IMG/VR virus record: IMGVR_UViG_3300044825_002252
Span: 1-60,262 of that record
From: a virus
Strand: one strand, 5' to 3'
DNA length: 60,262 bases
Shown here in pieces: positions 12,461-39,590 of the stretch. Numbering within the stretch: position 1 is the stretch's first letter; every line of letters starts with the position of its first letter. The notes below the pieces were generated by a model. That model had not been told where the DNA came from, searched no databases, and saw nothing but the letters and a program-made list of their open reading frames with translations. A program made the position numbers and the translations under genes.

Positions 12461-12462
12461 AA

Positions 12463-12831: not shown

Positions 12832-12837
12832 AAGTAA

Positions 12838-15800
12838 ATGACTAAGTATACTTCAGGAAGAGTAAAGAGATTCCCACAATCGGGAATCACTTCAGATCGA
12901 TACCAATTTTTAGGCTTAGAGCAAGCTGAACCTGATCTTGGCGATCCTATTGTTGGTGTTTCTTCTATCGGGGTAAATCCAGCACCTTATGGTGACCAAT
13001 ATGTTTTAACCAGTATTGCTGGACAAACAGGAAAAAGATATTGGATAAAAGCAATAGATCTCAATACTGATGGTATACAAGGTACGCAAGGTTCACAAGG
13101 AACACAAGGACTACAAGGTACTCAAGGTATCGGAAGTCCTATAGTTGAAATTTTAGGGACAGTTCCAGTATTTACTGATTTACCTGGATACGAGACTCCA
13201 CCAACTCCACAGACTTATACTGGAGCAGCTGGTGATGCTTACATTGAAGAAGCCACTAATAATTTGTGGATATGGGATAGCACTAAATGGGTTAACGTAG
13301 GGCAAATTCGTGGACCCCAGGGAGCTCAAGGATCTCAAGGATTTCAGGGTACACAAGGTCCACAGGGACCACAGGGTCCACAGGGATTACAAGGAACTCA
13401 AGGTCCACAGGGTTTACAGGGAATACAAGGATCACAAGGTCCACAGGGTTCACAGGGATTACAGGGACCACAAGGACTTCAGGGACAAGCTGGAACTGCA
13501 CAGGGAGCTCAAGGTTCTCAAGGAACACAAGGTCTTCAAGGTCCACAAGGAATTCAAGGAACACAAGGAATTCAAGGACTTCAAGGAAGACAAGGATCAC
13601 AAGGTCTTCAAGGTCCACAAGGAATTCAAGGAACACAAGGAATTCAAGGAAGTCAAGGTTTACAAGGTCCACAGGGAGCACAAGGTTTACAAGGTATACA
13701 GGGTACTGCTGGTAACGTACAAGGAGCTCAAGGTACACAAGGTAGCCAAGGAACACAAGGTCTTCAAGGACCACAGGGAATTCAAGGATCACAGGGAATT
13801 CAAGGTGCTCAAGGACTTCAAGGAAGACAAGGATCACAAGGTATCCAAGGATCACAAGGTCTCCAAGGAGCTCAAGGTCTTCAAGGACCACAGGGACTTC
13901 AAGGAACTCAGGGCATTCAAGGTAGCCAAGGTCCACAAGGAACGCAAGGTTTACAAGGCTTACAGGGTCTCCAAGGTATTCAAGGACAAGCTGGATCAGT
14001 TCAAGGTGCACAAGGTTCTCAGGGCACACAAGGAGCTCAAGGTGCTCAAGGACTTCAAGGTATACAAGGAAGTCAAGGTTTACAAGGTTCACAGGGCACA
14101 CAAGGAGCTCAAGGTATTCAAGGAGTACAGGGCCAAGAAGGAATTCAAGGACCAAAAGGAGAACCAGGATCAAATAATAATGGATTTAATGTAGTAAATG
14201 AAACTCTGTCCAACTCAAGTTGGTATGTTGGATTATTATCCACATCATCTGGCGTTTCAACAGATGTATACGTATCTGATTCAAAATTAACTTTTAATCC
14301 ATCATCAGGCAATCTTGGCATTGGAACCACAAATCCAACATCATCATTACAAATCAATAATACTAAAGGAACTGTTAGTGTTGGAGTTGTAACATCACGT
14401 ATTTCCTCTGACAATGGCATATTATTTGCTGGTATTGGAACCATAGCTCCTGGTATAGGAAGTGAAACTTTAACTTCTGGAGTTTTTACTGAAGTAAATG
14501 GACTACTTTTAAATAGTGGAATTAATTTATCTCAACTAATTAATCCAAGAGATACTACCAGAGTCGGTGGTATTATTAGATTGGATTCGAGAACTCTCAA
14601 TGAATCTTTTGGTGGTATAGGTGATTATAAATGTTTCGTTGTTAAATATGCTCCTGTCGGAGTTGCAACAAATAATGACCAAGGAATAAAAGATGGTCTT
14701 GTCATAAGTTTAGAAAATGGACAAACATATCTTGTACCTGATGAAGGAAATGTTCTAGTTGGACTTAAAAATGATACAGGAACAGCAAACCAAAAACTTC
14801 AAGTAGATGGTGGTGCTTATGTAAGTGGTAATCTTGGAGTTGGTGTTACTAGTCCAGAGGCAAAACTGCATGTAGCAAGTTTTACTGGAACAACAAATAG
14901 ATTATTAATCAGTCAACAAAAAACTTATGGAACTGGTACAGGAACCACAGAGAGAGTTGGTATTGACTTTGCAATAAGTGAAACTTATATTTCTCCAGTA
15001 ACAGATAGAATTTTTGCCAGAATAGACGCTGGACCAGAAAGTGAAACCGACTCTGGACAATCATTTTTATCTCTCTCTACTAGAGATGGTGGTGTAGTAG
15101 AAGAAAAAGTTCGTATAACTTCATCTGGAAATGTTGGCATTGGAACCACAAATCCATCACAAAAACTACAGGTAGGAAGTGGATCTTCTACATTCGTTGT
15201 TACTGGTGTCGGTAGTGTTGGTATTGGAACCACAAATCCTATTGTCTCATTAGATGTTGTCGGCGACACAAGAATTTCAGGAGTATCTACATTTAATGGA
15301 TCAATAAAATTAAATTCAACTTTAAAAGATTTATATGATAGTGTTGGTAGTTCTGGATCCATTTTAATTTCCACAGGTGCTGGAGTTAGTTGGACTAATC
15401 CATTTGCTGCAGGATTGCAGGGACTTCAAGGAACTCAAGGTAGTGAAGGTCTCCAAGGAGCTCAAGGTACTCAAGGTCTCCAAGGAGCTCAAGGAACTCA
15501 AGGTCTCCAAGGAACTCAAGGTAGTGAAGGTCTCCAAGGAGCTCAAGGTACTCAAGGAACTCAAGGTCTGCAAGGAACTCAAGGTAGTGAAGGTCTCCAA
15601 GGAACTCAAGGTCTGCAAGGAACTCAAGGTAGTGAAGGTCTCCAAGGAACTCAAGGTACTGAAGGTCTACAAGGAGCTCAAGGTCTCCAAGGAACTCAAG
15701 GTAGTGAAGGTCTCCAAGGAGCTCAAGGTACTCAAGGTGCCAGTGATGGTGGAATCGCCATTCTTGATGACACATCGACAAATTCAAATTGGTATGTTGG

Positions 15801-17814
15801 ATTCGTATCTATAACATCTGGTATAGCAAAAACAGCTCATGTTTCTTCTGGAAAATTAACTTTCAATCCATCATCAGGTAATCTTGGTATTGGAACCACA
15901 AATCCAACATCAAAACTTTATGTTGTTGGTGATGGATACTTCACTGGTGTAGTAACAGCAACTACTTTCTATGGTGATGGTTCACAATTAACAAATCTTG
16001 CTACTCCCGGAACACTTATTTCAATTTCTACTAACACATCAAACCAAGCACAATTCTTAACTTATGCAGTAGGTGTTGGATCAACTGCTGGACTTGGTGT
16101 AACAACTACAGGTTTAGTATTCAATCCATCATCAGGCAATCTTGGTATTAAAACCGACAATCCAACATCAAGACTTTGGGTTGATGGCGATGGATATTTT
16201 ACTGGTGTAGTTACGGCAACATCATTTATAGGTAGTGGTGCTTCATTAACTGGATTGATTCCAAATACCATACAAAACATAGATAATAATCAGTTATATT
16301 ATCCATTATTATCTCCAGCATTTAGTGGAACTATTTCTAGTATTTCTGCATCAAGCACTTCAATTGTTTTTAATCCAGGAACTGATTCTCTAGGAATAGG
16401 AACAACAAATCCAACACAAAAACTACATGTACAAGGTAATGCTAGAATTACTGGTGCGATTTATGATTCTACAAATTCTCCAGGAGGTTCAGGTCAAGTT
16501 CTTTTATCAACCTTAACAGGAACACAATGGAGTCCGTTTCCACCAGATGCAAATGCAAGCAAATTCAATACCAACATTGATAATTCTCTTTACGTTCAGC
16601 CAACAGGAACATTAGATATTGTTGGTGTAGGTGTAACAACAACGCAAATTACAACACTCCCATCTGGTTCTAGTAAGTACATAGTTCGTTCAATTCACGT
16701 TACAAACGTATCAAATGGTGACGCAGAAATTACCTCTGGATTCATAATGAATGCAAGAAAAGTTCCTGCTACTATTTCAGTGAGTGTTGGGTCTAGTGGT
16801 GGTGCTGGTATTCATACATTTACCGTAGGTTCTGCAAGTAGCATTAGAATTGGTATGGCAGTCACTGGTACTGGTAATATTGGAGAAACTACAGGTATTG
16901 GTTCAACTGCTGGATTCCAGTATAATACATATGTAACCAGTGTTGATGGAAACGTTATCACAATCAACAAACCAATGAGTGGTCATGCAACAGGGATTTT
17001 ACAGTTCTCACCAGTTTCAATTATTGCATCTAGACTACCAGTTCCTGTTGGTTCTGCAGTTGAACTCCTGAAAGAACCAATGATCCTAGATTCATTGGAT
17101 AGTATAGTCGTTCAATCTACTGGTGCTGGTTCTGGTATTGGATCAACATCAACTGCAGCAATTTCGCAAACTGCAAACTCTAATTTCCTAACTGTCACTG
17201 CAGGAGCTGCAATTACAAACTATATTACTCCGGGAATGTTAATCCAGTCAACTGACAATAACACTGGAATTCAAACAAATACTTTTGTTGGCGATGGATA
17301 CAGTCCAGGATCATTGTCAATTCCAATGACAAAACCAGCAAGAACATCCTTTGCTAACACTTCATATTCATTTACTGAAGTTGTTGTACCTCAAGATGGT
17401 GCATTACAAACATCTATAGTATATCAATCTATATCAGATTCGTCCTATCAAAATGGCACAGGAACTGTAGTAGGACTCGTTGCATCTGGAGCGGTTTCTG
17501 GTATTACTGCAACAGCACCAGTATGTTATTATGGAACTGGAAGTACATATCCAGCAGTAGTACAATCAATTAGAGTCACTAACATTTCCGATGAATACAT
17601 TTATCCAGGAGGAGATTATCCAGTTTGGGTTGGTATTGGTAATAGTGATACGGTATTCTCTTGGTTGGCATATAATATGGTAATTCCAAGAAACTCTTCA
17701 ATTGAACTTTGCGAGTCTCCAAAGAGATTGGGAATCGGTCAATCAATCTTTGCTTATGCATATGCACCAAATACAATAGAAATTCAAATCTCAGCAAAAC
17801 AAAAAATCACATAA
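12838..17814 (+). CDS. Giant collagen-like fibre protein (Gly-X-Gln triplets)
   Basis: 1,658 aa. Collagen-like Gly-X-Y tracts, nearly all with Gln in the third place (GPQGAQGSQ...), cover residues about 79-99, 159-445 and 859-968. The first long tract is broken by short inserts (GQAGTAQG, GTAGNVQG, GQAGSVQG) and ends in GPKGEPGS. Between and after the tracts lie several NLGIGTTNPTSxL beta modules, each followed by V-x-G-D and T-G-V-V-T-A-T, with YGDGSQLTNL copies: typical trimeric phage fibre repeats. Residues about 1240-1658 form a non-repetitive C-terminal domain, probably the tip. X positions carry Ser, Thr, Pro, Leu, Ile and Ala, so Thr/Ser could be glycosylated. The long open frames on both strands across the tracts are by-products of the repeats. 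Confidence 0.88.
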   Translation: MTKYTSGRVKRFPQSGITSDRYQFLGLEQAEPDLGDPIVGVSSIGVNPAPYGDQYVLTSIAGQTGKRYWIKAIDLNTDGIQGTQGSQGTQGLQGTQGIGSPIVEILGTVPVFTDLPGYETPPTPQTYTGAAGDAYIEEATNNLWIWDSTKWVNVGQIRGPQGAQGSQGFQGTQGPQGPQGPQGLQGTQGPQGLQGIQGSQGPQGSQGLQGPQGLQGQAGTAQGAQGSQGTQGLQGPQGIQGTQGIQGLQGRQGSQGLQGPQGIQGTQGIQGSQGLQGPQGAQGLQGIQGTAGNVQGAQGTQGSQGTQGLQGPQGIQGSQGIQGAQGLQGRQGSQGIQGSQGLQGAQGLQGPQGLQGTQGIQGSQGPQGTQGLQGLQGLQGIQGQAGSVQGAQGSQGTQGAQGAQGLQGIQGSQGLQGSQGTQGAQGIQGVQGQEGIQGPKGEPGSNNNGFNVVNETLSNSSWYVGLLSTSSGVSTDVYVSDSKLTFNPSSGNLGIGTTNPTSSLQINNTKGTVSVGVVTSRISSDNGILFAGIGTIAPGIGSETLTSGVFTEVNGLLLNSGINLSQLINPRDTTRVGGIIRLDSRTLNESFGGIGDYKCFVVKYAPVGVATNNDQGIKDGLVISLENGQTYLVPDEGNVLVGLKNDTGTANQKLQVDGGAYVSGNLGVGVTSPEAKLHVASFTGTTNRLLISQQKTYGTGTGTTERVGIDFAISETYISPVTDRIFARIDAGPESETDSGQSFLSLSTRDGGVVEEKVRITSSGNVGIGTTNPSQKLQVGSGSSTFVVTGVGSVGIGTTNPIVSLDVVGDTRISGVSTFNGSIKLNSTLKDLYDSVGSSGSILISTGAGVSWTNPFAAGLQGLQGTQGSEGLQGAQGTQGLQGAQGTQGLQGTQGSEGLQGAQGTQGTQGLQGTQGSEGLQGTQGLQGTQGSEGLQGTQGTEGLQGAQGLQGTQGSEGLQGAQGTQGASDGGIAILDDTSTNSNWYVGFVSITSGIAKTAHVSSGKLTFNPSSGNLGIGTTNPTSKLYVVGDGYFTGVVTATTFYGDGSQLTNLATPGTLISISTNTSNQAQFLTYAVGVGSTAGLGVTTTGLVFNPSSGNLGIKTDNPTSRLWVDGDGYFTGVVTATSFIGSGASLTGLIPNTIQNIDNNQLYYPLLSPAFSGTISSISASSTSIVFNPGTDSLGIGTTNPTQKLHVQGNARITGAIYDSTNSPGGSGQVLLSTLTGTQWSPFPPDANASKFNTNIDNSLYVQPTGTLDIVGVGVTTTQITTLPSGSSKYIVRSIHVTNVSNGDAEITSGFIMNARKVPATISVSVGSSGGAGIHTFTVGSASSIRIGMAVTGTGNIGETTGIGSTAGFQYNTYVTSVDGNVITINKPMSGHATGILQFSPVSIIASRLPVPVGSAVELLKEPMILDSLDSIVVQSTGAGSGIGSTSTAAISQTANSNFLTVTAGAAITNYITPGMLIQSTDNNTGIQTNTFVGDGYSPGSLSIPMTKPARTSFANTSYSFTEVVVPQDGALQTSIVYQSISDSSYQNGTGTVVGLVASGAVSGITATAPVCYYGTGSTYPAVVQSIRVTNISDEYIYPGGDYPVWVGIGNSDTVFSWLAYNMVIPRNSSIELCESPKRLGIGQSIFAYAYAPNTIEIQISAKQKIT

Positions 17815-17817
17815 TTT

Positions 17818-18471
17818 ATGAGTATTCTTATATCATTACCTTGTTATGGTGGATTGGTGAATGAAAAAACCACAACATCATTGTTTAATCTTGGTAAACT
17901 TTTAGTTCGCAATAATATAGAACACGGCATAATGACCGTCGCAAATGAGTCATTGATTACTCACGGACGGTCAAGAATTGCAAACTTCTTTATGAATAAT
18001 ACTGAGTTTGAGTATTTGTTCTGTTTGGATGCTGATGTTGCATTTTCATCAGAAGATGTATTAAAGTTATATTCATATCAAAAACCAATTGTGTCTGCAT
18101 CATATCCAATGAAAACAATACCAATTAGACACTGTTATGAGGTTTGTAATCCTGTAAAGTTATGTGGAAATCTAGTCAAGATTGGTGGAATTGGTATGGG
18201 ATTTGTATTAATTCACCGAAATGTCTTTCTGGAACTAAATAAGTATTATAGTGAATTGAAATATTTTCCTGGATTGAATAATTCAAACTATCCAATCACC
18301 GAAAAAGAATATCACAATTCTTATCACTACTTTGCAGAAATGAATAAGGAAGGAAAATACTTAGGAGAAGATATGAGTTTCTTTCATCGCGTCAGTGATA
18401 TTGGTTATGATGTTTGGATGGATACAACTATAGAATTACAACACATCGGTTCTCACGTATTCGGTAAGTAA
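17818..18471 (+). CDS. GT-A fold glycosyltransferase (phage type)
   Basis: 217 aa. Features of a small GT-A glycosyltransferase: LISLPCYGG at the N-terminus, an Arg-rich motif HGRSRIANFF (49-58), the metal/sugar-nucleotide motif FCLDADVAF (DAD at 71-73), a glycine-rich GIGMGFVLIHR segment (124-134), and GEDMSFFHR (183-191), where Glu-Asp would be the catalytic acid region. It starts 3 bases after the collagen-like fibre stop and ends one base before a YGWFGGG repeat protein, so it is translated with both. It probably adds a sugar to one of these virion proteins or to a phage glycan; donor and acceptor are unknown. Confidence 0.75.
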   Translation: MSILISLPCYGGLVNEKTTTSLFNLGKLLVRNNIEHGIMTVANESLITHGRSRIANFFMNNTEFEYLFCLDADVAFSSEDVLKLYSYQKPIVSASYPMKTIPIRHCYEVCNPVKLCGNLVKIGGIGMGFVLIHRNVFLELNKYYSELKYFPGLNNSNYPITEKEYHNSYHYFAEMNKEGKYLGEDMSFFHRVSDIGYDVWMDTTIELQHIGSHVFGK

Positions 18472-18472
18472 A

Positions 18473-20299
18473 ATGGCAATTGGAGTATTTGGTTTACAAG
18501 TTGCTTATAAACTGAAGAGAGCTGAATTACTGAGTACTGATGATACTCACGGTTGGATCGGCGGTGGATCCACTCCTGGACCAGTATCATTATCAACGGT
18601 AGATCGTATAGATTTTTCAAATGATTTGATAACAGCATCAGTAAGAAGTCCTTTAAATTCAGAAAGATTTAGATTAGCAGCAACAGGAAACTCTAATTAT
18701 GGTTGGTTTAGTGGTGGAACATTTGGAACGGCGTCATCATTAGATCGTATAGATTTTTCTAATGATTTTTCAAATGCTTCTCCAAGAGGACCATTGAGTT
18801 CAGGAAGATATACTTTAGCAGCAACAGGAAACTCTAACTATGGTTGGTTTGGTGGTGGGATAATACCATCACCATCTAAACCACAATCATCGACAGTTGA
18901 TCGTGTTGATTATGCTAATGATTCCTCCATTTCGTCACCAAGAGGACCATTAACTTTAGCAAGAGGGTTTATTGCAGCAACAGGAAACTCTAATTATGGT
19001 TGGTTTGGTGGTGGTTCTGGACCAGGACCTAGCGTATCTTCACCACCAGTATCAACAGTAGATCGGGTTGATTTTTCTAATGATTTTGTATCAGCATCAC
19101 CAAGGAGTTTATTGACTTTATCAAGATATGCACTAGCCGCAACAGGGAACTCTAACTATGGTTGGTTTGGTGGTGGAACTGAGATTGGAACCACAACAAG
19201 AGTCGATCGAGTTGATTTTTCTAATGACTCTTTGTGTTTAGTTAGAGGAAATATTGTTACTAGATCTTTCTATGCAGCGACAGGAAATTCTAATTATGGA
19301 TGGTGGACTGGTGGAAGTCCAACAACTTCTCTTGTATATAGAATTGATTTTTCTAATGATTTGGCATCAGCATCATCTAGAGGATTTACAAGCGCAACAA
19401 AAGGATCTTCATCTGCTGCATCAGGTCAAGCAAAGAATAATTCAATAAAACCACAAAAGACAGGAAGTTACGGATGGTGGGGTGGTGGTAATCCTAATAT
19501 ATCAACCGTAGTGCGTACCGATTTTTCCAATGATTTAGCATCATCATCACAAAGAGGACCATTAAGTACAGGAAGAGCTTTCCTTGCAGCAACAGCAAAT
19601 GCAAATTATGGTTGGTTTAGTGGCGCTGGTGGTGGAGCAATGGATCGCATAGATTTTTCTAGTGATCTTACAAGAGCAATACCAAGAGGAAGTGGACCAA
19701 GTTTAACAAGAATGGCTGCAGTATCAAATTCTAGTTATGGTTGGTTTGGTGGTGGATATAATCCTACTTCTTCAAGTGTAACAAGAATTAATTTTTCAAA
19801 TGATTTAAGTACAAGATCACCTAGAGGAAATTTATTTCAACAAAGACATTATTTAGCAGCGACAGGAAATTCTAACTATGGATGGTTTGCTGGCGGAAGA
19901 AATCCTTCACCAATTACATTTACTGTTGAAACAGTAGATCGTATAGATTATACTAATGATTTAGCAACGGCATTACAAAGAGGACCATTAAACTCAGCGA
20001 GATCTTTACATGCAGCAGTAGGAAATTCTAATTATGGATGGTTTTCTGGTGGAGATTCTGGAGGAGTTACATATGAAAGAATTAACTTCTCAAATGATTC
20101 AATCAATTCTTTAACTAGAATTCCAAATTCACCTAGTCTCGTTGCGCTTGGAACTGGAAATAATAATTATGGATGGTTTGATCATTATGACGGTATCGCA
20201 TATAGATTGGATTTTTCCAATGATACATCTTTAAGACGAAGAGGACCATTAGCAGCAGGGGAATATGGAGCAGCAACCTCCAACACACCAGTAGGATAA
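18473..20299 (+). CDS. Twelve-repeat YGWFGGG propeller-like protein 1
   Basis: 608 aa. After a 25-residue leader (MAIGVFGLQVAYKLKRAEL) the protein is twelve repeats of 40-60 residues with the plan (Y)GWFGGG - variable loop - (T)VDRIDFSND - x - ASPRGPL - x - AATGNSN. Repeat 6 ends with an irregular insert (SGQAKNNSIKPQKTG), so the array is 6 + 6. This looks like two six-bladed kelch-like beta-propellers; the fold is inference. The variable loops after GGG differ in length and composition and would line one face of the propeller. It has two paralogs (21763-23601 and 26001-28241) with the same 6 + 6 plan. It ends SNTPVG, directly on a late promoter. It is likely a host-binding virion protein. 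Confidence 0.8.
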   Translation: MAIGVFGLQVAYKLKRAELLSTDDTHGWIGGGSTPGPVSLSTVDRIDFSNDLITASVRSPLNSERFRLAATGNSNYGWFSGGTFGTASSLDRIDFSNDFSNASPRGPLSSGRYTLAATGNSNYGWFGGGIIPSPSKPQSSTVDRVDYANDSSISSPRGPLTLARGFIAATGNSNYGWFGGGSGPGPSVSSPPVSTVDRVDFSNDFVSASPRSLLTLSRYALAATGNSNYGWFGGGTEIGTTTRVDRVDFSNDSLCLVRGNIVTRSFYAATGNSNYGWWTGGSPTTSLVYRIDFSNDLASASSRGFTSATKGSSSAASGQAKNNSIKPQKTGSYGWWGGGNPNISTVVRTDFSNDLASSSQRGPLSTGRAFLAATANANYGWFSGAGGGAMDRIDFSSDLTRAIPRGSGPSLTRMAAVSNSSYGWFGGGYNPTSSSVTRINFSNDLSTRSPRGNLFQQRHYLAATGNSNYGWFAGGRNPSPITFTVETVDRIDYTNDLATALQRGPLNSARSLHAAVGNSNYGWFSGGDSGGVTYERINFSNDSINSLTRIPNSPSLVALGTGNNNYGWFDHYDGIAYRLDFSNDTSLRRRGPLAAGEYGAATSNTPVG

Positions 20300-20302
20300 A
20301 TA
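20295..20302 (+). promoter_or_regulatory. Late promoter octamer (GATAAATA) over a stop codon
   Basis: Exact NATAAATA match that contains the TAA stop of repeat protein 1, 22 bases before the ATG of the oxygenase-like gene. Confidence 0.55.
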
Positions 20303-20323
20303 CTCACAACTACATTATTTCAT

Positions 20324-20935
20324 ATGAATCAAAATATAATTATTGTTGATAATTTCTATGAGAATCCATATGAAGTTCGTCAATATGCACTAAACCTGGA
20401 ATATCCACAACCACAAGAAGGTTATACATATCCAGGTAGAAATTCAAAAGGAACTTTTTATAATCAAGAGATTCATAATAAGTTTGAGAATCTTCTTGGA
20501 AGACCACTAATTCCAGCACAAGAAGGTAATCACGGAGACTTTAGATTATCATTAGAGAAAGATACATTTCAACAAGATATTCACATTGATCCTATTTGGG
20601 ATTGGGGGTGTGTTCTCTATATGAACCTTCCTAACCAATGTATTGATGAAGCAGGAACATCTTTCTGGAAACATAAAAAACTAGGATGGGAAAGATGTCC
20701 CGAACAACACGAAGCAGGTTGGTTTGGGTATAATTCTTATGAGGAAATTCGTGATGGTATTGTATACGGTGATGGACTTGACCGTTCTAAATGGGATAGA
20801 TACTGTTTAGCAAATATGAAATATAACAGGGCTGTTATATTCAATCCAAAACTTTGGCACTCACACGGAGAAAATTTTGGAGATTGTTTAGAAAACGGTA
20901 GATTAGTTCAGTTGTTCTTCTTTAATAATGCATAA
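20324..20935 (+). CDS. 2OG-Fe(II) oxygenase-like protein (DUF6445-like)
   Basis: 203 aa. The pattern of a double-stranded beta-helix dioxygenase is visible: H87-x-D89 (QDIHIDP), VLYMNLP, GTSFWKHK, then WHSHGENF (H179 or H181 as the distal Fe ligand) and R193 in NGRLVQLFFF as the probable 2-oxoglutarate anchor. This set resembles the family I know as DUF6445, often found near sulfotransferases and glycosyltransferases. Its stop overlaps the start of the sulfotransferase by 8 bases, so the two are coupled. Substrate is unknown: amino-acid side chains of virion proteins are one possibility, a small molecule another. Confidence 0.7.
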   Translation: MNQNIIIVDNFYENPYEVRQYALNLEYPQPQEGYTYPGRNSKGTFYNQEIHNKFENLLGRPLIPAQEGNHGDFRLSLEKDTFQQDIHIDPIWDWGCVLYMNLPNQCIDEAGTSFWKHKKLGWERCPEQHEAGWFGYNSYEEIRDGIVYGDGLDRSKWDRYCLANMKYNRAVIFNPKLWHSHGENFGDCLENGRLVQLFFFNNA

Positions 20936-21758
20936 GACTTATTTTTTTGAAAGTGGATTACCTCGTTCTGGTTCTACATTACTTTCTGCAATTCTAAATC
21001 AAAATCCAGACCTTCATTGTGGTGCAATATCTCCTGTTCTGGAGATTATGTATTATACAGAACAGTACTTTGAGGGATCAGAGCAAGCACTTGCATATCC
21101 AAAACCAGAACAGCATCATAAGATTATTTCAAGTGTGATTGATAATTATTATAGCGATAGAGAAGAGAAGTATATTATAGATAAATGTCGTGCCTGGCCG
21201 AATAATGTAGATCGAGCACAAGAATACATTACAAAAACTCCAAAGATTCTGTGTCCTGTGAGAGATGTATTAGAGATTCTTACATCTTTCATCGAAATGA
21301 TTCATCGCAATTCAAATCAATTGTCTTTTATAGATACCAGACTCATAGAAAAAGGGTATGCACTTACTGATAATAATAGATGCGATTATCTTATGTCTCA
21401 AGATGGTATTGTGGACCAGTCTTTATATGCATTTGGTGAGGGATTTAGAAAGGGATGTGAAAAGTATATGCATATAATTGAGTATAATGATTTGGTGAAT
21501 CATCCAGAAGAAACAATGAGAAAAATATATAAGTTTTTGGATATTCCACATTACTCACACGACTTCAATAACGTGTTCCATAAATATAGAGAGAAAGATA
21601 ATAAAATTTATGGACTAAGTGATATGCACGAAGTTCGTAAAGAAGTAAGAAAAACTTCTAAAAGACCTGAAGAAGTTTTGAGTGATTATATTTTAAATAA
21701 GTATTCTAATATGGAATTTTGGAGAAAGGCAAAACAACCAATCAGTCTTTTCATCTAA
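20928..21758 (+). CDS. Sulfotransferase
   Basis: 276 aa. The 5'-phosphosulfate-binding P-loop GLPRSGSTLLSAIL (10-23) is at the N-terminus, and the 3'-phosphate-binding motif follows at CPVRDVLEILTSFI (Arg112, Ser120), as in PAPS-dependent sulfotransferases. The late pattern (YNDLVNHPEETMRKIYKFLDIP) is also typical. Length is normal for the family. It overlaps the oxygenase-like gene by 8 bases and is followed 4 bases later by the second YGWFGGG protein. It may sulfate a sugar or tyrosine on the virion, or a host metabolite. Confident in family, not in target. Confidence 0.85.
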   Translation: MHKTYFFESGLPRSGSTLLSAILNQNPDLHCGAISPVLEIMYYTEQYFEGSEQALAYPKPEQHHKIISSVIDNYYSDREEKYIIDKCRAWPNNVDRAQEYITKTPKILCPVRDVLEILTSFIEMIHRNSNQLSFIDTRLIEKGYALTDNNRCDYLMSQDGIVDQSLYAFGEGFRKGCEKYMHIIEYNDLVNHPEETMRKIYKFLDIPHYSHDFNNVFHKYREKDNKIYGLSDMHEVRKEVRKTSKRPEEVLSDYILNKYSNMEFWRKAKQPISLFI

Positions 21759-21762
21759 GCAA

Positions 21763-23601
21763 ATGACGATAAACAATAATAGTATATTTGGAGTATTTAC
21801 ACTTGGAGAAGTTCGTAGCGGAAGACTTTCTGGCGATTGGCTGAATAAAGAAGCAGTTGCGAATTATGGTTGGTTTGGCGGTGGATTTCTTCCAATAATA
21901 TCATCAGTAGATCGTATAGATTTCTCTAATGATTCGGTATCAGCATCACCAAGAGGTCCATTAAGTCAAACAAAAAATAATTTAGCAGCAACAGGAAATT
22001 CTAATTATGGATGGTTTGGTGCTGCAACAGCAGCAACATCCATTATATCAACTGTAGACCGTGTTGATTTTTCCAACGATTCTACAACAGCATTAATTAG
22101 AGGATCATTGAGTCTGTCAAAAAGTGAGGCAGCAGCAACAGGAAACTCTAATTACGGTTGGTTTGGTGGTGGGGGAGACCCTTCACCTGTTCTTATATTA
22201 TCTTCAGTAGACCGTATAGATTTCTCTAATGATTCCACAACGGCATCACCAAGAGGTCCATTGAGTTTAGCAAGATTGAGTTTAACATCAACAGGAAACT
22301 CTAACTATGGTTGGTTTGGAGGTGGTTCTCCAGGATCAATATCACAAATAGATCGTATAGATTTCTCTAATGATTCCACAACGGCATCACTAAGAGGTCC
22401 ATTGAGTCAGGTAAAAAATAACGTAGCAGCAACAGGAAATTCTAATTATGGTTGGTTTGGAGGTGGTACTCCTGGTCCACAATCAAGAGTAGACCGTATA
22501 GATTTCTCTAATGATTTAGTACAAGTATCAGTAAGAGGTTCATTAAGTCAAACAAGACATGATTTATCGGCAACAGGAAACTCTAACTATGGTTGGTTTG
22601 GTAGTGGTAGAAACCCATCAATTCCTGCGAGCTATAGTACAGTTGATCGTATAGATTTCTCAAATGATTCAGTCCAAGCATCTGTAAGAGGTTCATTACT
22701 TTTAGAAAAATATAATACTGCTGCAACCTCAGGAGTTCTCAATATTCGCAGGCAGAGAGGTGGAAATTTTGGATGGTTTGCTGGAGGTGGAAATCCATTT
22801 GCAATAGATTTTGTTAATAGAATTAATTTTTCAAATGATTTAACTTTAACACCAAGAGGAGCTTTAAGCACACCCATTCAAGGTTTAGCATCCGCTTCAA
22901 CGTCCGATTATGGTTGGTTTGGTTTAACTCGAATAGATAGAATAAACTTTTCTAATGATTTAACAACAGCATCACCAAGAGGATCATTACAAACAACTAG
23001 ACCAAATTTATCTGCTGCTGGAAATTCTAACTATGGCTGGTGGGCTGGTGGTCTACCTGGAGCACCAGTGGCAATTATAGAACGAATGAATTTTTCCAAT
23101 GATCTTGCATCAGGTTCACCAAGAGGACCATTAAGTGTGGGAAGAACCACCTTGGCTGCTACTGGAAATTCAAACTATGGTTGGTTTAGTGGTGCCTCAG
23201 GTGGTGCATTTGATCGTGTAAATTTTTCAAATGATTTAGCGACTGCATTACCAAGAGGTTCAGGTATGTCTAGGAGTTCTGTTGCTGCAACAGGAAACTC
23301 CAATTATGGTTGGTTTGGTGGTGGATATAATCCAAGAACAGCAATGGATCGTATAGATTTCTCAAATGATTTACTCGCTTCTTTACCTAGAGGACCAATA
23401 AGAGATAGGGCTGGACATGCTGCAACTGGAAACTCTAATTATGGTTGGTTTGGTGGTGGATTTGTTGGTGATCCATTACCTACAGTTGATCGCATAAATT
23501 TCTCTAACGATTCTGTATCATCGACAGCAAGTGGTTCATTTGTGAACTTATTCAGAGGATCTGTAGGACTAACAGCAGCATCAAACACCCCAATAGGATA
23601 A
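21763..23601 (+). CDS. Twelve-repeat YGWFGGG propeller-like protein 2
   Basis: 612 aa. It has the same plan as its paralogs: a 34-residue leader (containing SIFGVFTLGEVRSGR), then twelve repeats, with an irregular insert (SGVLNIRRQRGGN) after repeat 6, giving 6 + 6. Repeat 8 has lost its GGG loop (YGWFGLTRIDRI). Repeat 11 (23347-23460) is almost the same DNA as repeat 4 of paralog 3. It ends SNTPIG followed by a GATAAAATATG junction with the next gene. The likely function is host binding; the propeller fold is inference. Confidence 0.8.
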   Translation: MTINNNSIFGVFTLGEVRSGRLSGDWLNKEAVANYGWFGGGFLPIISSVDRIDFSNDSVSASPRGPLSQTKNNLAATGNSNYGWFGAATAATSIISTVDRVDFSNDSTTALIRGSLSLSKSEAAATGNSNYGWFGGGGDPSPVLILSSVDRIDFSNDSTTASPRGPLSLARLSLTSTGNSNYGWFGGGSPGSISQIDRIDFSNDSTTASLRGPLSQVKNNVAATGNSNYGWFGGGTPGPQSRVDRIDFSNDLVQVSVRGSLSQTRHDLSATGNSNYGWFGSGRNPSIPASYSTVDRIDFSNDSVQASVRGSLLLEKYNTAATSGVLNIRRQRGGNFGWFAGGGNPFAIDFVNRINFSNDLTLTPRGALSTPIQGLASASTSDYGWFGLTRIDRINFSNDLTTASPRGSLQTTRPNLSAAGNSNYGWWAGGLPGAPVAIIERMNFSNDLASGSPRGPLSVGRTTLAATGNSNYGWFSGASGGAFDRVNFSNDLATALPRGSGMSRSSVAATGNSNYGWFGGGYNPRTAMDRIDFSNDLLASLPRGPIRDRAGHAATGNSNYGWFGGGFVGDPLPTVDRINFSNDSVSSTASGSFVNLFRGSVGLTAASNTPIG

Positions 23602-23604
23602 AAT

Positions 23605-25125
23605 ATGAAATCAGGAGCAAGTGAAAGTTCTTATGTTTTTCTTGAAGAATATTATAAGTTTCCAGAAAATATTATAGTTTCTCATTTACCACAAGAACTT
23701 CAACAGTCAAATAAACCAATAAAAGTATTATGGTCGCAACATTCTTACGACCAACCAGTTTATCTTAACTTTGATTTTTCAATTTGTGATTTAATTGTAT
23801 CTCCATCCAACTGGTGTAGAGAACAATTCATCAAGTATCATCACATTCCAGAAGATAAAATCGTCACAATTCCAACAGGAGTATCCAAGCAATTTACATA
23901 TTCCAACAAGAAATCAAAAACATTTATCTATACTTCCATACCATATAAAGGTCTTGAAGTATTAGCACAAATCATTCCTCATATTCCAGAGGCAACATTT
24001 AAGATTTTCTCTGCGATGAATCTTTATGATATTCAAGAAGATCCATACACAGAACTTTATGAGTATCTCAAGTCACTTCCAAATGTGATCTACTCACCAG
24101 CAGTAGACCAAGCAGAACTGATAGAGCACTTACAAGATGCTGCGTTCTTTATTCATCCAAACATCTGGGAAGAAACATTCTGTGTTTCACTAGCAGAAGC
24201 AATGTCTTGTGGTTGTTATCCAATTTTGACTGACATTGGAGCACTTCCAGAAGTATCAAATGAGATTGCAAATATTGTTCCAATGGAAGGTATAAGAACC
24301 ACAAAAGGTTATGAAGTTACAGACAACTTCCTAAATAACTTTATAGATGCCTGTAAGTCTGCATTATATTTCTTTGATACTGATAGGCAATACTACGACC
24401 AAATTTCACAATCTGCTTCACATTATGCTACTGAAACTTATGATTGGAAGTTGGTTTCTAAACTATGGGAAAATGCTATGAACTCTTTATTATACCCAAA
24501 AACTAATGAACTTTATTTTCGTCCACAAACATTAGATGAATGGATATACAATGAAGTTTATGTAGAAAACACTTATGAGATAAACCAATTCAACCAAGAT
24601 GATATTGTAGTTGATATTGGAGCACACTCTGGATATTTCACAAAACTCTGTTTGGATAAAGGTTGCAGACAAGTACATTGTTTTGAGCCAGAAGAAGATA
24701 ATTTTCAAAATCTTCTGAGAAATCTTTCATCTTATAAGCAATATCAACCTTATCAATTAGCAGTTCATAAAGAAATGGGAACTTATGATTTTTGTGTTGT
24801 TCCTGGAAAAAATACTGGACTGCATTCTTTATATCAAAGAGGTGGGATTTCAACAAAAGTAAATTGCGTATCTCTTGATAATATTCTATCCAAATTGGAA
24901 AAAGTTTCACTGCTAAAAATTGATACTGAAGGTTCAGAGTTTGAGATTTTAATGAACTCAAAACTTCTTCATAAAGTTGAAAAGATTGTTGGTGAATATC
25001 ACAATGATTTGACTGAGTATCATATTCATAATCTAATTGAATTTTTAGAGCGGAATGATTTTACGATTGATAAAATTAAAGAAACTAATGATACATCAGG
25101 AACTTTCTTTGCAACACATAAATAA
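23605..25125 (+). CDS. Fused GT4 glycosyltransferase and FkbM methyltransferase
   Basis: 506 aa, two enzymes in one chain. Residues about 1-300 are a GT-B glycosyltransferase of family GT4 lacking most of the N-terminal half: VSPSNWCREQF (65-75), IPTGVSKQF, and the donor-site E-x7-E motif at Glu190 and Glu198 (EETFCVSLAEAMSCG). Residues about 315-506 are an FkbM-type SAM methyltransferase: VVDIGAHSGYF (335-345), FEPEEDNFQNL, VSLDNIL and KIDTEGSEFEIL (438-449). Such a pair would add a sugar and O-methylate it. It lies between repeat protein 2 and a helical unknown, inside the fibre region. Acceptor unknown. Confidence 0.85.
   Translation: MKSGASESSYVFLEEYYKFPENIIVSHLPQELQQSNKPIKVLWSQHSYDQPVYLNFDFSICDLIVSPSNWCREQFIKYHHIPEDKIVTIPTGVSKQFTYSNKKSKTFIYTSIPYKGLEVLAQIIPHIPEATFKIFSAMNLYDIQEDPYTELYEYLKSLPNVIYSPAVDQAELIEHLQDAAFFIHPNIWEETFCVSLAEAMSCGCYPILTDIGALPEVSNEIANIVPMEGIRTTKGYEVTDNFLNNFIDACKSALYFFDTDRQYYDQISQSASHYATETYDWKLVSKLWENAMNSLLYPKTNELYFRPQTLDEWIYNEVYVENTYEINQFNQDDIVVDIGAHSGYFTKLCLDKGCRQVHCFEPEEDNFQNLLRNLSSYKQYQPYQLAVHKEMGTYDFCVVPGKNTGLHSLYQRGGISTKVNCVSLDNILSKLEKVSLLKIDTEGSEFEILMNSKLLHKVEKIVGEYHNDLTEYHIHNLIEFLERNDFTIDKIKETNDTSGTFFATHK
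25117..25124 (+). promoter_or_regulatory. Late promoter octamer (CATAAATA) over a stop codon
   Basis: NATAAATA match overlapping the TAA stop of the GT4-FkbM gene, 28 bases before the next ATG (25153). Confidence 0.5.
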
Positions 25126-25152
25126 GAATAGTTATCATTTTATAAAATATAA

Positions 25153-25989
25153 ATGACTGAAAATTGTAACCAACTGCAAATTATTTCCCCAGAGGAAGCA
25201 GTAAGTAACGAAGAATATTTACAACAAGCATTTCAGGAAGTCCTTCGTTGGGAAGAATCAGATAAAGAACTCGCACAAGGCAGAACCAATTTCCAGATTG
25301 AGAAGTTCTTTCTGTTAGAACAATATACAGTTCCAGCAGCATTCCAAGCAGCAATTAAGAATCGTCGTATTCTTGCTGAAGGTTATATGCAGAAACTGAT
25401 TGAAATGAAAGAGAAGGTTCGTGAATTTGAGTATCGTTGGAAAGGTAAGAATAAAGAAGAACCAGTAGAGTGGCATACTTCAGGACCCAATGGTGGATCC
25501 ACAAAACTTTATTGGTATGATTTGGATTCTCTTTCAACTCAAAATTACTTGAAATCTTGTGAGTTAGAGATTCGTGATCGCATCCAACAAATGAATTTCT
25601 TTGATAAGATTATCAATCGTCTGATTGAACTGAATGGTGGTAAGACAGTTACTAGAGAACAGTTTGAAGCAGAAGATCACGTTTATTGGGAACGTCGTTT
25701 TGCAGAGCAATCTCTGGATGAAATGGTAAGTTCCAAGACTGGTATTAGTATTGGTAATCTTCACTCAATGAGAAGAGGAACTGCTCCAACACTAGTAAGT
25801 GAAGACACAAATCGTATTAAGAATGGTTATGGATCACTTGCTGATGCAATCAATGATCCAGAAAGATTCCTAAATACTCTACAAGAGAAAGTTCTCCGTG
25901 GTATTGAAGAAGTTACAAATACTGATCTTGGTCTAATTGCTCCTGGTACAGAACAACATCAACAACTTTTAGAAACTAGAAATCCATAA
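25153..25989 (+). CDS. Conserved-looking helical protein, function unknown
   Basis: 278 aa, highly charged and mostly alpha-helical by composition; the stretch 65-95 (MQKLIEMKEKVREFEYRWKG) could form a coiled coil. No signal peptide, membrane segment or catalytic motif is seen. Codon use is like the neighbouring genes. It stands apart from the beta-rich proteins around it and ends 11 bases before repeat protein 3. A chaperone or assembly role for that protein is possible but rests only on position. Confidence 0.65.
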   Translation: MTENCNQLQIISPEEAVSNEEYLQQAFQEVLRWEESDKELAQGRTNFQIEKFFLLEQYTVPAAFQAAIKNRRILAEGYMQKLIEMKEKVREFEYRWKGKNKEEPVEWHTSGPNGGSTKLYWYDLDSLSTQNYLKSCELEIRDRIQQMNFFDKIINRLIELNGGKTVTREQFEAEDHVYWERRFAEQSLDEMVSSKTGISIGNLHSMRRGTAPTLVSEDTNRIKNGYGSLADAINDPERFLNTLQEKVLRGIEEVTNTDLGLIAPGTEQHQQLLETRNP

Positions 25990-26000
25990 GGAGAAAATAA

Positions 26001-28241
26001 ATGCCTGCAGGAGACGTATTTGGACTTGATGGATTTTTTCTCAACAAGTCAAATCCTATTGTTGTTTCTACAATAGGTATTAACTCAACAGATTCTTCTG
26101 CTGGTATTGCAGTTACTGCAGGTTCTTTTAGTTCTGGAACAGTAACATTAAATCTGTCCGATGCTGTGGGTCTTTCTACGACACCTTTTTATACTGGTGC
26201 AAAAATTGCAGTATCTGGTTTAGTAGATGCAACAGGAGTAGCACATACTGGATATAATGGAACTTTTGTAGTTACTGGTTTTGCAGGAACCACAACAGTT
26301 TCTTATGCAACCACTGGTTATATTGGTCCAGTAACTGCTGGTATTACCACAACTGGTTTGGTAATGTTAGTGACTGATACACAAGTCACTAACACAACTT
26401 GGAGTAGCAATCAAACTCACGGTTGGTTTGGTGGTGGTTCTCCTGGAAGCGGAACATTATCAGCAGTAAACCGCATAGATTTCTCTAATGATACCATAAC
26501 AGCATCACCAAGAGGTACATTAAGTTTAGCAAGACAACGTTTAGCAGCAACAGGAAACTCTAACTATGGTTGGTTTGGTGGTGGATCCAATACAACTCCA
26601 GCAATAATATCAACAGTAGACCGTATAGATTTCTCTAATGATTCTGGAACAGCATCACCAAGAAGTCCATTAAGTTTAGCGAGAGAGAGATTAGCAGCAA
26701 CAGGAAACTCTAACTACGGTTGGTTTGGTGGTGGTATTATTCCTAGTCCAGCAGTAGTATCAACAGTAGACCGTATAGATTTCTCTAATGATTCTGGAAC
26801 AGCATCACTAAGAAGTCCATTAAGTTTCGCAAGAGAGAGATTAGCATCAGTAGGAAACTCTAATTATGGTTGGTTTGGTGGAGGATTAGTTCCAGGTTCA
26901 GTAAGAGTATCAACAGTAGACCGTATAGATTTCTCAAATGATTTACTCGCATCTTTACCTAGAGGACCAATAAGAGATAGACCTGGACATGCTGCAACTG
27001 GAAACTCTAATTATGGTTGGTTTGGTGGTGGCGGATCTACGCCACCATCGTCAACATTTTCAACATTATCAACAATAGACCGTATAGATTTTTCTAATGA
27101 TTCTACAACAGCATCACCAAGAAGTACATTAAGTTTAGCAAGAGGTAATTTAGCAGCAACAGGAAACTCTAACTACGGTTGGTTTGGTGGTGGATTCACA
27201 CCACCAGGAAATCTGTCAACAGTAGACCGTATAAATTTTTCTAATGATTCTGTAACAGCATCACCAAGAGGACCATTGAGTTCAGGAAGATATAGTTTAG
27301 CAGCAACATCAGGACAGGCAAGAAGTTTATCATTTAAATCTTTACCAGTAAAATTAGGTTTTGGATGGTTTGTTGGAGGATTTACTCCACCATCAACATC
27401 ATCAAATAGAATAGATCGTATAAATTTTTCCAACGATTCTGCAACAGCATTGACTAGAGGTGGTTTGCAAGCAGGAGTCTCTGTGGCTCCTGCTGCAACA
27501 TCAAATGCTAATTATGGATTCTTTACTGCTAATAATAATGTTATAGATTTTTCCAACGACTTAATTCAATCAAGAATTGATACATTAATTTTTACAGATT
27601 TTGGAGCATATTCTTCAGCAACAGGAAATTATAACTATGGTTGGTTTGGCGGTGGTAGTCCTGGAGCTAGAACTTCTGTTACTCGTTTAAATTATTCAAA
27701 TTTTACAGCAGCAACTACACCAAGAGGTCTATTAAGTCAAGGAAGATATGGTTTAGAAGCAACAGGAAACTCTAATTATGGTTGGTTTGCTGGTGGCGCA
27801 AACGCCACTCCGACAATAGTAAATACAGTAGATAGAATAGATTTTTCTAATGATTTCATATCAGCATCTCCTAGAGGATCATTAATTATTCCAAATTTAT
27901 TTGTTGCCGCAACAGGAAACTCTAATTATGGTTGGTTCGGTGGTGGTTATCTTGCACCAGGACCAGTAAGATATTCAAGAATACAACGTATAGATTTTTC
28001 TAATGATTCTATTTTAGCCCTATTAAGAAGTCAATTAACAGCAGAAAAATCTGGTGCATCTGCTTCGGGAAATTCCAATTATGGTTGGTTTGGTGGTGGA
28101 TTCGTTGCACCAGGATTTTCAACAATAGCAGCAGTAGATAGAATTGATTTCTCAAATGATCTTGCCTCGGCATCACCCAGAGGACCACTAAGTCAAAGTA
28201 GAGGTGGACTTGCCTCAGTATCAAATGTACGAATAGGATAA
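26001..28241 (+). CDS. Twelve-repeat YGWFGGG propeller-like protein 3 with N-terminal beta domain
   Basis: 746 aa. It has a strong ribosome-binding site (AAGGAG, 25988-25993). Residues 1-130 form an extra beta domain absent from the paralogs (AVTAGSFSSGTVTLNLSDA; YNGTFVVTGFAGTTTVSYAT), probably a virion adaptor. Residues about 136-746 are twelve YGWFGGG repeats with an insert (SGQARSLSFKSLPVKLG) after repeat 6, so again 6 + 6; repeat 8 is degenerate (YGFFTANNNVIDFSND). Its repeat 4 is nearly identical DNA to repeat 11 of paralog 2. It ends SNVRIG on a late promoter. Confidence 0.8.
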   Translation: MPAGDVFGLDGFFLNKSNPIVVSTIGINSTDSSAGIAVTAGSFSSGTVTLNLSDAVGLSTTPFYTGAKIAVSGLVDATGVAHTGYNGTFVVTGFAGTTTVSYATTGYIGPVTAGITTTGLVMLVTDTQVTNTTWSSNQTHGWFGGGSPGSGTLSAVNRIDFSNDTITASPRGTLSLARQRLAATGNSNYGWFGGGSNTTPAIISTVDRIDFSNDSGTASPRSPLSLARERLAATGNSNYGWFGGGIIPSPAVVSTVDRIDFSNDSGTASLRSPLSFARERLASVGNSNYGWFGGGLVPGSVRVSTVDRIDFSNDLLASLPRGPIRDRPGHAATGNSNYGWFGGGGSTPPSSTFSTLSTIDRIDFSNDSTTASPRSTLSLARGNLAATGNSNYGWFGGGFTPPGNLSTVDRINFSNDSVTASPRGPLSSGRYSLAATSGQARSLSFKSLPVKLGFGWFVGGFTPPSTSSNRIDRINFSNDSATALTRGGLQAGVSVAPAATSNANYGFFTANNNVIDFSNDLIQSRIDTLIFTDFGAYSSATGNYNYGWFGGGSPGARTSVTRLNYSNFTAATTPRGLLSQGRYGLEATGNSNYGWFAGGANATPTIVNTVDRIDFSNDFISASPRGSLIIPNLFVAATGNSNYGWFGGGYLAPGPVRYSRIQRIDFSNDSILALLRSQLTAEKSGASASGNSNYGWFGGGFVAPGFSTIAAVDRIDFSNDLASASPRGPLSQSRGGLASVSNVRIG

Positions 28242-31700: not shown

Positions 31701-33566
31701 ATGGCTGACCCTAAAATTAAAATTAAAAGATCAGCAATACCTGGCAAAATACCTACTGTAGAGCAACTTCCTTTAGGTGAGCTGGGACTTAATACATTTG
31801 ATGCAGATATATTTGCTCGTAGAGAAAGAGCAGGTATTGGAACAGACATAGTAAGGCTTGGAGCTGGAGCAACTGTTACAAATGTACTATATGTCACACA
31901 AGACGGAATCGACACAAACACAGGAAAAAAGCTTGGAGACGCAAAAAGAACAATTGGAGCAGCACTGTCAGAAGCAACAACAGGAACAATTATTAAAGTT
32001 AGTGCTGGATCTTATGTAGAAAATAACCCATTAATTTTACCTAAGCAGGTTTCTATTGTTGGAGATAGTTTGAGGGAAGTTTCAGTTTCCCCACAAAATT
32101 CAAACCAAGATTTATTTTATGTTTTAGAAGGAAATTATATTGCAGAAATATCTTTCACTGGAACTCTAAATCCAGGTAAGGCAATTTTTGCATTTAATCC
32201 AAATCAAGTTGGATTTACTAGTCAGTCACCATATATTCAAAATTGTACTAATTTTATTCCAAATAGTATTGGATTAAAAATCGATGGCTCAAAATGCATT
32301 GGGCCATTAAAATCTATGGTTTTGGATTCATATACTCAATATAATCAAGGTGGAATTGGATGTTCAATTACCAATGAAGGCTATGCTCAATTGGTATCAA
32401 TGTTTACTATTTGCAATGACATTGCAGTTTACTGTGGATCCGGTTCTGCATGTGATTTGACCAATTCTAATTCTTCATTTGGAAATTATGCTTTAGTCTC
32501 AGATGGAGTTGGTCCTTTAAAATACACTGGGATTATAACTAATCCTGCTACAATTAACTCAGATACTTTTGTTTTAGACCTAAATGTACCAACTTTAAAT
32601 GTTAATTCTGCATTATATGATAATTTAACTGGATTGACTACAATTACAGTCAATACGAATCATAATTTAAGTATTGGAATGGGAGTCACGATTTCTGGAC
32701 TTGCATTTACATGTACATCTGGACCTGGAATTGTTACATATCCATCTGGCAATAAAGGTTATATTTTTGAAGTTGTTGGAGTACCTTCATCCACTTCATT
32801 TGAAGTTTATGTTGGAATATCCACTTTACAACATACATATCAGTCTGGTGGAACAGTAAAAATAAATGTATCCAGACCTTTTGATGGTCAGGTAATTTAC
32901 TTGGAAGATTTATATTATACAGTAGGAAAAATTAATGTAAGTTCTGGAGGAACTGGATACACTGAAACGCCAGAAATTACAATAGAAAGTCCACCTACAC
33001 AATGGGGAATTCCAGCAACTGCTGTTGCCGAAGTCATAAATGGATCTGTATCTTCGGTAGAAATTGTGTCCAGTGGTCGTGGATATAGCTCAACTGTTCC
33101 TACTGTAAATTTTGGTATGCCGAATATTGGTATAAATTCGGCAACCGCGACAGTAAATCTTACTCCTACTTATTATGTAATATCCAAATCAACTCCAATT
33201 TCTTCTGGGATTTGTACGGTAACCTTAACCGATAATGTTCCATATGCAGTTGGAGTTGGTTCTACCGTTCCATTTTTTAAACAAAGTAGAATATTGGCAT
33301 CTGGGCACTCATTAGAATACATTGGATCTGGGACTGACATTTCAACATCATTGCCACAAAATGGTGGAGTGCCAATTCAATCAAATGAAACCGATTCAAG
33401 AAATGGTGGATTAGTTGTATTCACATCAACTGATCAATCAGGTAATTTTAGAATTGGAGATGGGGTTGTAATAAATCAACAATCAGGGACTATTACTGGA
33501 ACATTTTACTCTAAAAGTTTGTTTTCTACAATAACACCGTTCATTTTAGCACTAGGAGGAGATTAA
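31701..33566 (+). CDS. Beta-helix virion protein, paralog of 8483-12460
   Basis: 621 aa. The N-terminus (KIKIKRSAIPGKIPTVEQL, LGELGLNTFDADIFARRER) is a fibre attachment motif. Residues about 57-120 are a beta-helix opening (NVLYVTQDGIDTNTGKKLGD, AGSYVENNPLILP). Then come the YTQYNQGGIGCSI and DLTNSNSSFGNYALVS block shared with the larger paralog and one copy (about 308-390) of the module that is present four times there (SGPGIVTYPSGNKGYIFEV). The end has ILASGHSLEYIGSG and GNFRIGDGVVINQQSGTITG. It is followed by paralogs of the two genes that follow 8483-12460, so the whole cassette is duplicated. Confidence 0.8.
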   Translation: MADPKIKIKRSAIPGKIPTVEQLPLGELGLNTFDADIFARRERAGIGTDIVRLGAGATVTNVLYVTQDGIDTNTGKKLGDAKRTIGAALSEATTGTIIKVSAGSYVENNPLILPKQVSIVGDSLREVSVSPQNSNQDLFYVLEGNYIAEISFTGTLNPGKAIFAFNPNQVGFTSQSPYIQNCTNFIPNSIGLKIDGSKCIGPLKSMVLDSYTQYNQGGIGCSITNEGYAQLVSMFTICNDIAVYCGSGSACDLTNSNSSFGNYALVSDGVGPLKYTGIITNPATINSDTFVLDLNVPTLNVNSALYDNLTGLTTITVNTNHNLSIGMGVTISGLAFTCTSGPGIVTYPSGNKGYIFEVVGVPSSTSFEVYVGISTLQHTYQSGGTVKINVSRPFDGQVIYLEDLYYTVGKINVSSGGTGYTETPEITIESPPTQWGIPATAVAEVINGSVSSVEIVSSGRGYSSTVPTVNFGMPNIGINSATATVNLTPTYYVISKSTPISSGICTVTLTDNVPYAVGVGSTVPFFKQSRILASGHSLEYIGSGTDISTSLPQNGGVPIQSNETDSRNGGLVVFTSTDQSGNFRIGDGVVINQQSGTITGTFYSKSLFSTITPFILALGGD

Positions 33567-33568
33567 AA

Positions 33569-33910
33569 ATGGCATTAGCACTCAATGTTTTTCAGACGGT
33601 TACTTCAGTTGTCCCAACTAGTGCAACAGTAATATATACTGCTCCAGTTGGATATACTGGAGTTATCCTCCTAGCACAAGTTGCAAATATTAGTGGAAAT
33701 TCTGAAGATATTTCTTTATCACATCAAAGATCAGTTGCTGGAATAGCAGTAACTACGGAAATGTTAAAGCAATATCCCATTTCAGCAAATGATACTGCCA
33801 ATTTGCTTTCTGGAAAATTAGTATTAGAAAGTGGAGATAAATTAGTTCTATCTGGTAGTAATGGAACTGATCTCAAATTCATAGCTAGCATTTTAGAAAC
33901 ACTTAATTAA
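33569..33910 (+). CDS. Small virion protein, paralog of 12463-12831
   Basis: 113 aa, beginning MALALNVFQTVTSVVP. Shared blocks with the 122-aa paralog are the ALNxFxT start, IYTAPVGYTGVILLAQVANIS, the HQRS/HSRD region, ISANDT and the SILET end. It lies two bases after the beta-helix gene and 11 bases before the second collagen-like fibre, the same order and spacing as the first cassette. Role unknown; conservation of order suggests it contacts one of the two. Confidence 0.75.
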   Translation: MALALNVFQTVTSVVPTSATVIYTAPVGYTGVILLAQVANISGNSEDISLSHQRSVAGIAVTTEMLKQYPISANDTANLLSGKLVLESGDKLVLSGSNGTDLKFIASILETLN

Positions 33911-33921
33911 TATACCGTAAA

Positions 33922-38851: not shown

Positions 38852-38865
38852 GAGAGTAAATTAAA

Positions 38866-39573: not shown

Positions 39574-39590
39574 ATACTTCAAAAACTATT

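Follow-up and report, generated by a model that had tools for sequence, protein, structure and literature searches.

Three paralogues, each with twelve repeats in two blocks of six

Why should a virus carry three related proteins, each with exactly twelve copies of the same repeat, and what might such proteins do? The question is raised by IMG/VR virus record IMGVR_UViG_3300044825_002252, of which positions 1 to 60,262 (60,262 nucleotides, called the window hereafter) contain the paralogous genes A (18473-20299, 608 amino acids, aa), B (21763-23601, 612 aa) and C (26001-28241, 746 aa). These three genes, and all features located below in their cluster, lie on the + strand. The models presented here give good support to each protein being two closed six-bladed kelch-type propellers in tandem, and the best reading of their role is that they are probably virion-displayed, hypervariable propeller arrays that bind the host surface.

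Translation and splitting of the repeats showed that each of the three proteins has twelve repeats of the YGWF(G/S/A)GG type and as many motifs of the (D/N)(F/Y)xND type, so that the number and the coordinates proposed in an earlier note on this DNA proved right. Repeat length is about 47 residues, most repeats measuring 41 to 54 aa. At the junction of repeats 6 and 7, the GNSN turn is replaced by an irregular insert, and the claim that such an insert of 13-17 residues is found after repeat 6 only was borne out in A, B and C, with the insert sequences correctly given. After repeat 12 the chain ends also differ from GNSN (SNTPVG in A, SNTPIG in B, SNVRIG in C), as expected if each six-repeat block is one unit.

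With the repeats taken as blades (6+6 in each protein), A is made of a short N-terminal tag, MAIGVFGLQVAYKLKR, propeller A1 (blades 1-6, 18548-19420), the linker SGQAKNNSIKPQKTG (15 aa, 19421-19465) and propeller A2 (blades 7-12, 19469-20296). Protein B has the N-terminal tag MTINNNSIFGVFTLGEVRSGRL, followed by propeller B1 (blades 1-6, 21865-22728), the linker SGVLNIRRQRGGN (13 aa, 22729-22767; low predicted local distance difference test score, pLDDT, at residues 326-333) and propeller B2 (blades 7-12, 22768-23598). In C, the tag MPAGDVFGLDGFFL is followed by an extra N-terminal domain (residues ~10-135, 26028-26405), which has no Pfam match and is kept in C orthologues, and then by propeller C1 (blades 1-6, 26418-27308), the linker SGQARSLSFKSLPVKLG (17 aa, 27309-27359) and propeller C2 (blades 7-12, 27360-28238).

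Blade number across relatives

Relatives were collected from IMG/VR, Synechococcus phage S-SKS1 and marine virus AG-345-L05, and their repeats were counted with a profile hidden Markov model (HMM). The tally comprises the complete proteins at 90% non-redundancy (n=99); frameshift-broken genes of S-SKS1 and of contig L084 were excluded from it. Repeat numbers of 6, 12, 18, 24, 30 or 36 were found in 98 of the 99 proteins, 38 of which are stand-alone six-repeat proteins. Multiples of six were also obtained for 24 of 24 clusters at a 50% identity threshold, and for 11 of 11 at 45%. Assuming that all residues modulo six are equally probable and that clusters are independent, the chance of 24 out of 24 is about 2×10−19, and the pattern is not due to chance. 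Long linkers, defined as a blade-to-blade distance of at least 58 aa, occupy 89 of the 99 junctions that follow blades 6, 12, 18, 24 and 30, and 4 of the 1000 other junctions. The family thus has what is expected of tandem propellers, namely repeat numbers that are multiples of the ring size and linkers between the rings. In one AG-345-L05 protein of 12 blades (L119:21838-24585), a LamG-type domain sits exactly between both six-blade modules (6+LamG+6). As evidence that would speak against its proposal, the earlier note had named homologues whose repeat number cannot be divided by six; none was encountered except an open reading frame (ORF) of one blade, which is discussed below.

Several other apparent exceptions were rejected. 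The L033 pair (17 + 2) is a single 18-blade gene carrying a frameshift, the 9+3 and 3+9 pairs of S-SKS1 read as two frameshift-broken 12-blade genes, and the 6+24 pair of L084 reads as a frameshifted 30-blade gene. Counts of 13, 9 and 8 in the strongly diverged proteins of AG-345-L05 were undercounts, a family-specific HMM giving 18, 18 and 12, and a count of 35 in L046 is truly 36. Frameshifts split the propeller genes of S-SKS1 (L059) into several annotated and unannotated ORFs, and may be sequencing errors or real. In L075, an intact 12-blade ORF is followed, in a different frame, by a third module that has shrunk to one blade (5601-5906).

Predicted fold of the six-repeat module

A single module, blades 1-6 of paralogue C, was modelled with AlphaFold2, taken with 77 further modules of the window and its relatives. 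The C1 model (m5a1bc380208e) is a kelch-type six-bladed propeller predicted with a pLDDT of 96.1 and a predicted template modelling score (pTM) of 0.93; its ring is closed, and the open solenoid that had been envisaged as a possible refutation was not seen. A Foldseek search aligned C1 over its whole length with Keap1 (4xmb, E 1.4×10−20, template modelling score, TM, 0.85/0.90), and designed six-bladed SAKe proteins matched similarly. The AlphaFold2 model of full-length B (m8c4070c92b23) has four strands per repeat. It matches the single kelch domains of KLHL12 and Keap1 over ~300 columns, and, over ~650 columns, also LRP6 E1E2, itself a tandem of six-bladed propellers, although the two do not superpose globally (TM 0.33). 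Two six-bladed propellers in tandem, as the 6 + 6 plan had suggested, are therefore supported by the C1 and full-length B models together, the two rings per protein coming from the latter.

Sequence profiles were less uniform. The comparison of the repeat with kelch and RCC1 families had been suggested as a check: Pfam Kelch_3 was recognised in paralogue C only (26.2 bits for a cut-off of 22), A and B had no kelch match, and neither an RCC1 nor a WD40 Pfam profile matched A, B or C, which have six blades per ring and kelch domains as closest folds. In the repeat consensus, GG(G) hardly varies and precedes an aromatic residue (RID[FY]), while the later kelch Trp is absent. Pfam matches of the repeats to FAM183, DUF7406 and DUF5816 were discarded as composition artefacts, as no single stretch passes alone. 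A PDB sequence search with the propeller proteins returned chance matches only, and one pattern-based scan of bacterial and archaeal genomes confirmed no cellular relatives.

From the phase of the repeat and the known kelch topology, the strand order within a sequence repeat is probably b-c-d-a, in which case a module's final strand would serve as the inner strand of its first blade, and the ring would be closed from the C-terminal end. The chain of a module would then run b1-c1-d1-a2 ... d6-a1. Such a closure by the last strand would require whole sets of six repeats per module, and would account for the irregular linker after each sixth repeat.

The predicted module resembles the six-bladed kelch domains of Keap1 and KLHL12 in having six four-stranded blades with GG in strand b (TM 0.85-0.90), in the probable origin of its ring-closing inner strand, at the C-terminal end of the module, and in the location of its variable loops on the b-c/d-a face, described next. 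Unlike these, the phage proteins are viral, lack BTB and BACK domains, have much shorter loops and highly alike blades, and come as 1-6 tandem propellers.

One variable face and rapid divergence

Loop variability was measured as entropy over 1302 repeats. Mean entropy was 2.84 bits for the b-c and d-a loops versus 1.06 bits for the c-d and a-b loops (Mann-Whitney p 3.5×10−4). Because the b-c and d-a loops share a side in a four-stranded meander, variation is concentrated on one face. The b-c loop is placed directly after GGG, so the idea that the loops after GGG vary on one face of the propeller is supported, and extends to the d-a loop on that face. In Keap1, the b-c/d-a face is the ligand-binding face.

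Divergence was compared among eight related genomes carrying the full cluster. Median identity was 66-67% for the propeller proteins versus 87-95% for the intervening genes. Paralogues within a genome are ~65% identical in most genomes, and less so in the window and in L025. Orthologues are thus barely closer than paralogues, which means that positional identity has been nearly erased despite near-identical neighbours. Far greater variability than the neighbouring genes, borne on one exposed face, is what a receptor-binding protein would be expected to have, and it is what we found here.

Possible exchange of blades between positions and genes

The best cross-genome match of a blade was at the same gene and position for 76 of 396 blades only, and individual blades often matched other positions best; this is suggestive of exchange but not decisive, since 47-residue repeats carry little signal. 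A position-locking of blade 6 disappeared once the linker was trimmed. Blade 11 of B (23292-23459) and blade 4 of C (26852-27031) share a private sequence that is 87% identical at the DNA level along 180 bp, which suggests a recent transfer of a blade across genes and positions. At some sites of the conserved core, codons are identical more often than codon usage would predict, in a small sample. Recombination between blades is a likely cause of the mixed matches.

A bolder proposal is that of a natural combinatorial adhesin, in which cassette blades would recombine via the conserved AATGNSNYGWFGGG core, selection for closure of the ring would keep six of them in each module, and propellers would be gained or lost whole (1-6). 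Blades would then move between positions and between paralogues by homologous recombination. We regard this as a tentative possibility, with the odds somewhat against it. If true, the combinatorial adhesin would be a modular hypervariable recognition system, with a logic analogous to that of repeat-based immune receptors.

Gene neighbourhood and host

Conserved genes lie between and next to the propeller genes. These are g217 (17818-18471), a weak match to a phage glycosyltransferase family, DUF6445 (PF20043, 20324-20935), a sulfotransferase (PF13469/PF00685, 20928-21758), a glycosyltransferase with an FkbM methyltransferase (23605-25125), g278 (25153-25989, phrog_1409, function not annotated) and a 2OG-Fe(II) oxygenase (PF13640, 28266-28916). 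All six are found with the propellers in remote relatives too, S-SKS1 and AG-345-L05 among them. The propeller cluster is flanked on both sides by tail-fibre, collagen-like and LamG genes, and so lies among tail-fibre genes, as genes of tail-fibre proteins do. In relatives, LamG, Ig/FN3-like or other domains are fused to propeller modules.

Among the 12 related larger contigs searched, the T4-type capsid gene gp23 was found in 8 and psbA in 4, which indicates that the relatives are T4-like cyanophages; we infer a cyanobacterial host for the window virus.

Other features of the window were recorded. A fibre gene set (large fibre, ~115-aa phrog_1276 protein, collagen-like fibre) is present twice, at 8483-17814 and 31701-38157, on either side of the propeller cluster. 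The collagen-like fibre at 12838-17814 has 1658 aa (PF01391, E 2.8×10−60), and 48241-51075 encodes a protein that combines FkbM, GT2 and GT25 domains; together with the 2OG-Fe(II) oxygenase, these possibly serve hydroxylation and glycosylation of phage collagen. A second tandem paralogue trio, of three ~230-aa Laminin_G_3 (LamG) proteins, is found at 38159-40513, and a protein containing three LamG at 44500-46764.

Function: the proposed explanation and its alternatives

The repeat counts, the period of six, the fold, the one-sided variability, the fast divergence and the tail-gene neighbourhood are all well supported. The three proteins likely form a phage receptor-binding family, on the basis of the tail-fibre cluster, the hypervariability, the fused LamG domains and the N-terminal tags. 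Each paralogue has its own tag, conserved among relatives (MAIGVFGLQVAYKLKR for A, MTINNN-IFGVFTLGEVR for B, MPAGDVFGLDGFFLN for C), and longer family members start with RGIF-L-DVRERQ or DVFGLE-VY; conserved, paralogue-specific tags are as expected of docking peptides. Incorporation into the virion, binding to a receptor and exchange of blades by recombination are what we infer from these data. In the scheme we propose, the tag, plus the extra domain in C, would most likely dock the protein on the tail-fibre or baseplate apparatus, and the variable face, to which both the d-a loops and the b-c loops behind GGG contribute, would bind cyanobacterial surface glycans or proteins. As each of the three paralogues has two propellers, a virion would display six different ones, hence broad or avid attachment. 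Blade sequences would diverge or exchange quickly while blade number stays at multiples of six, as an incomplete ring presumably does not fold.

Several points weigh against this scheme. For the propeller family, we found neither virion proteomics nor binding data nor a structure. Kelch propellers may be intracellular scaffolds (BTB-kelch) or enzymes, and speed of divergence is by itself no proof of receptor binding. Part of the apparent blade interchange is due to the weak signal of the short repeats. The model of full-length B is of modest confidence (pLDDT 67.5, pTM 0.49), which gives little support to any mutual orientation of the two rings, the rings themselves being well supported. Finally, the one intact exception to the rule of six is L137:4979-5236, an ORF of 86 aa that encodes an N-terminal tag followed by a single blade, possibly a deletion remnant or a protein that forms hexamers.

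Among the alternatives, the one that survives best is that of virion decorations, located on capsid, tail or fibres, which would stick weakly to many glycans or particles rather than bind a specific receptor. The many copies, with arrays of up to 36 blades and up to 18 propeller matches per contig, suit avidity, and jumbo phages such as CBB, with whiskers along the tail, have kelch proteins in their virions (PMC5259590). One-sided hypervariability and three position-specific N-terminal tags fit selective binding better, and we consider decoration unlikely, though not negligible. Less probable still is that the propellers stay outside the virion, as scaffolds or substrate holders for the interspersed sulfotransferase, glycosyltransferases and 2OG oxygenase, which would modify a phage fibre or a host glycan. 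These enzymes do occur alongside the propellers in remote relatives such as S-SKS1 and AG-345-L05, and kelch domains are typical protein-binding scaffolds; however, highly conserved enzymes and hypervariable propellers would be unusual partners within one complex, and the flanking tail-fibre genes, as well as the LamG and Ig/FN3-like fusions of relatives, argue for another role. Many glycan-active enzymes sit on propeller folds, and the proteins could be depolymerases or lyases cleaving glycans on a six-bladed scaffold, but this is very improbable, as conservation falls on structural residues that recur in every blade, no singular conserved polar cluster was seen in one blade, and the closest folds are non-enzymatic kelch binding domains. 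Lastly, propellers of up to twelve blades exist (PMC6805158), but a single twelve-bladed ring or an open solenoid is hardly conceivable here, given the common stand-alone six-repeat proteins, the members with 18, 24, 30 and 36 repeats, the linker every six repeats and the predicted closure of the six-repeat module.

Known systems and significance

There are precedents for kelch propellers, also within phage virions, for phage propellers and for tandem propellers. Kelch-type propellers occur in proteins of jumbo and other phages, namely CBB_552, which is present in the virion (PMC5259590), and the PhiPA3 and BcepSaruman proteins found among our Foldseek matches. Their sequence identity with the present family is low (10-19%), they come from other phage lineages, and we found no report of multiples-of-six arrays for them. 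Propellers are also part of known or putative phage receptor-binding proteins, such as phi11 Gp45 (five-bladed), PhiKZ gp131C (seven-bladed) and PRD1 P2 (five-bladed) (PMC4901313). Their propeller sits at the host-recognition tip or the baseplate periphery, but blade number and sequence family are other, and there is a single propeller domain per chain. The WRAP protein of Nostoc punctiforme, with 14 WD40 blades forming two seven-bladed propellers (PMC6805158), is similar in that its near-identical blades follow one another in a number that is a whole multiple of its ring size; it is WD40, seven-bladed and cellular, and is one protein with no copy-number series. PHROG 19111 (unknown function) and the S-SKS1 proteins SWZG_00287, SWZG_00289 and SWZG_00291 belong to the same family by sequence, two of the S-SKS1 loci reading as frameshift-broken 12-blade proteins. 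They are annotated as hypothetical only, with neither propeller nor six-fold rule recorded.

In the open-licence literature, we found no prior description of a 6-12-18-24-30-36 blade series without intermediates, with one to six propellers, nor of a hypervariable propeller cluster in cyanophages. Whether intermediate blade numbers are tolerated during beta-propeller evolution is an explicit open question in the field (PMC6805158). Here, a natural family is sampled at 6, 12, 18, 24, 30 and 36 blades with next to no intermediates, which makes selection for closed rings directly visible in sequence. The family also provides a large natural set of near-symmetric propellers, of use for design. It has members in isolate S-SKS1, which grows on Synechococcus WH7803, and points to an undescribed, fast-evolving and probable host-recognition protein set in freshwater and marine T4-like cyanophages.

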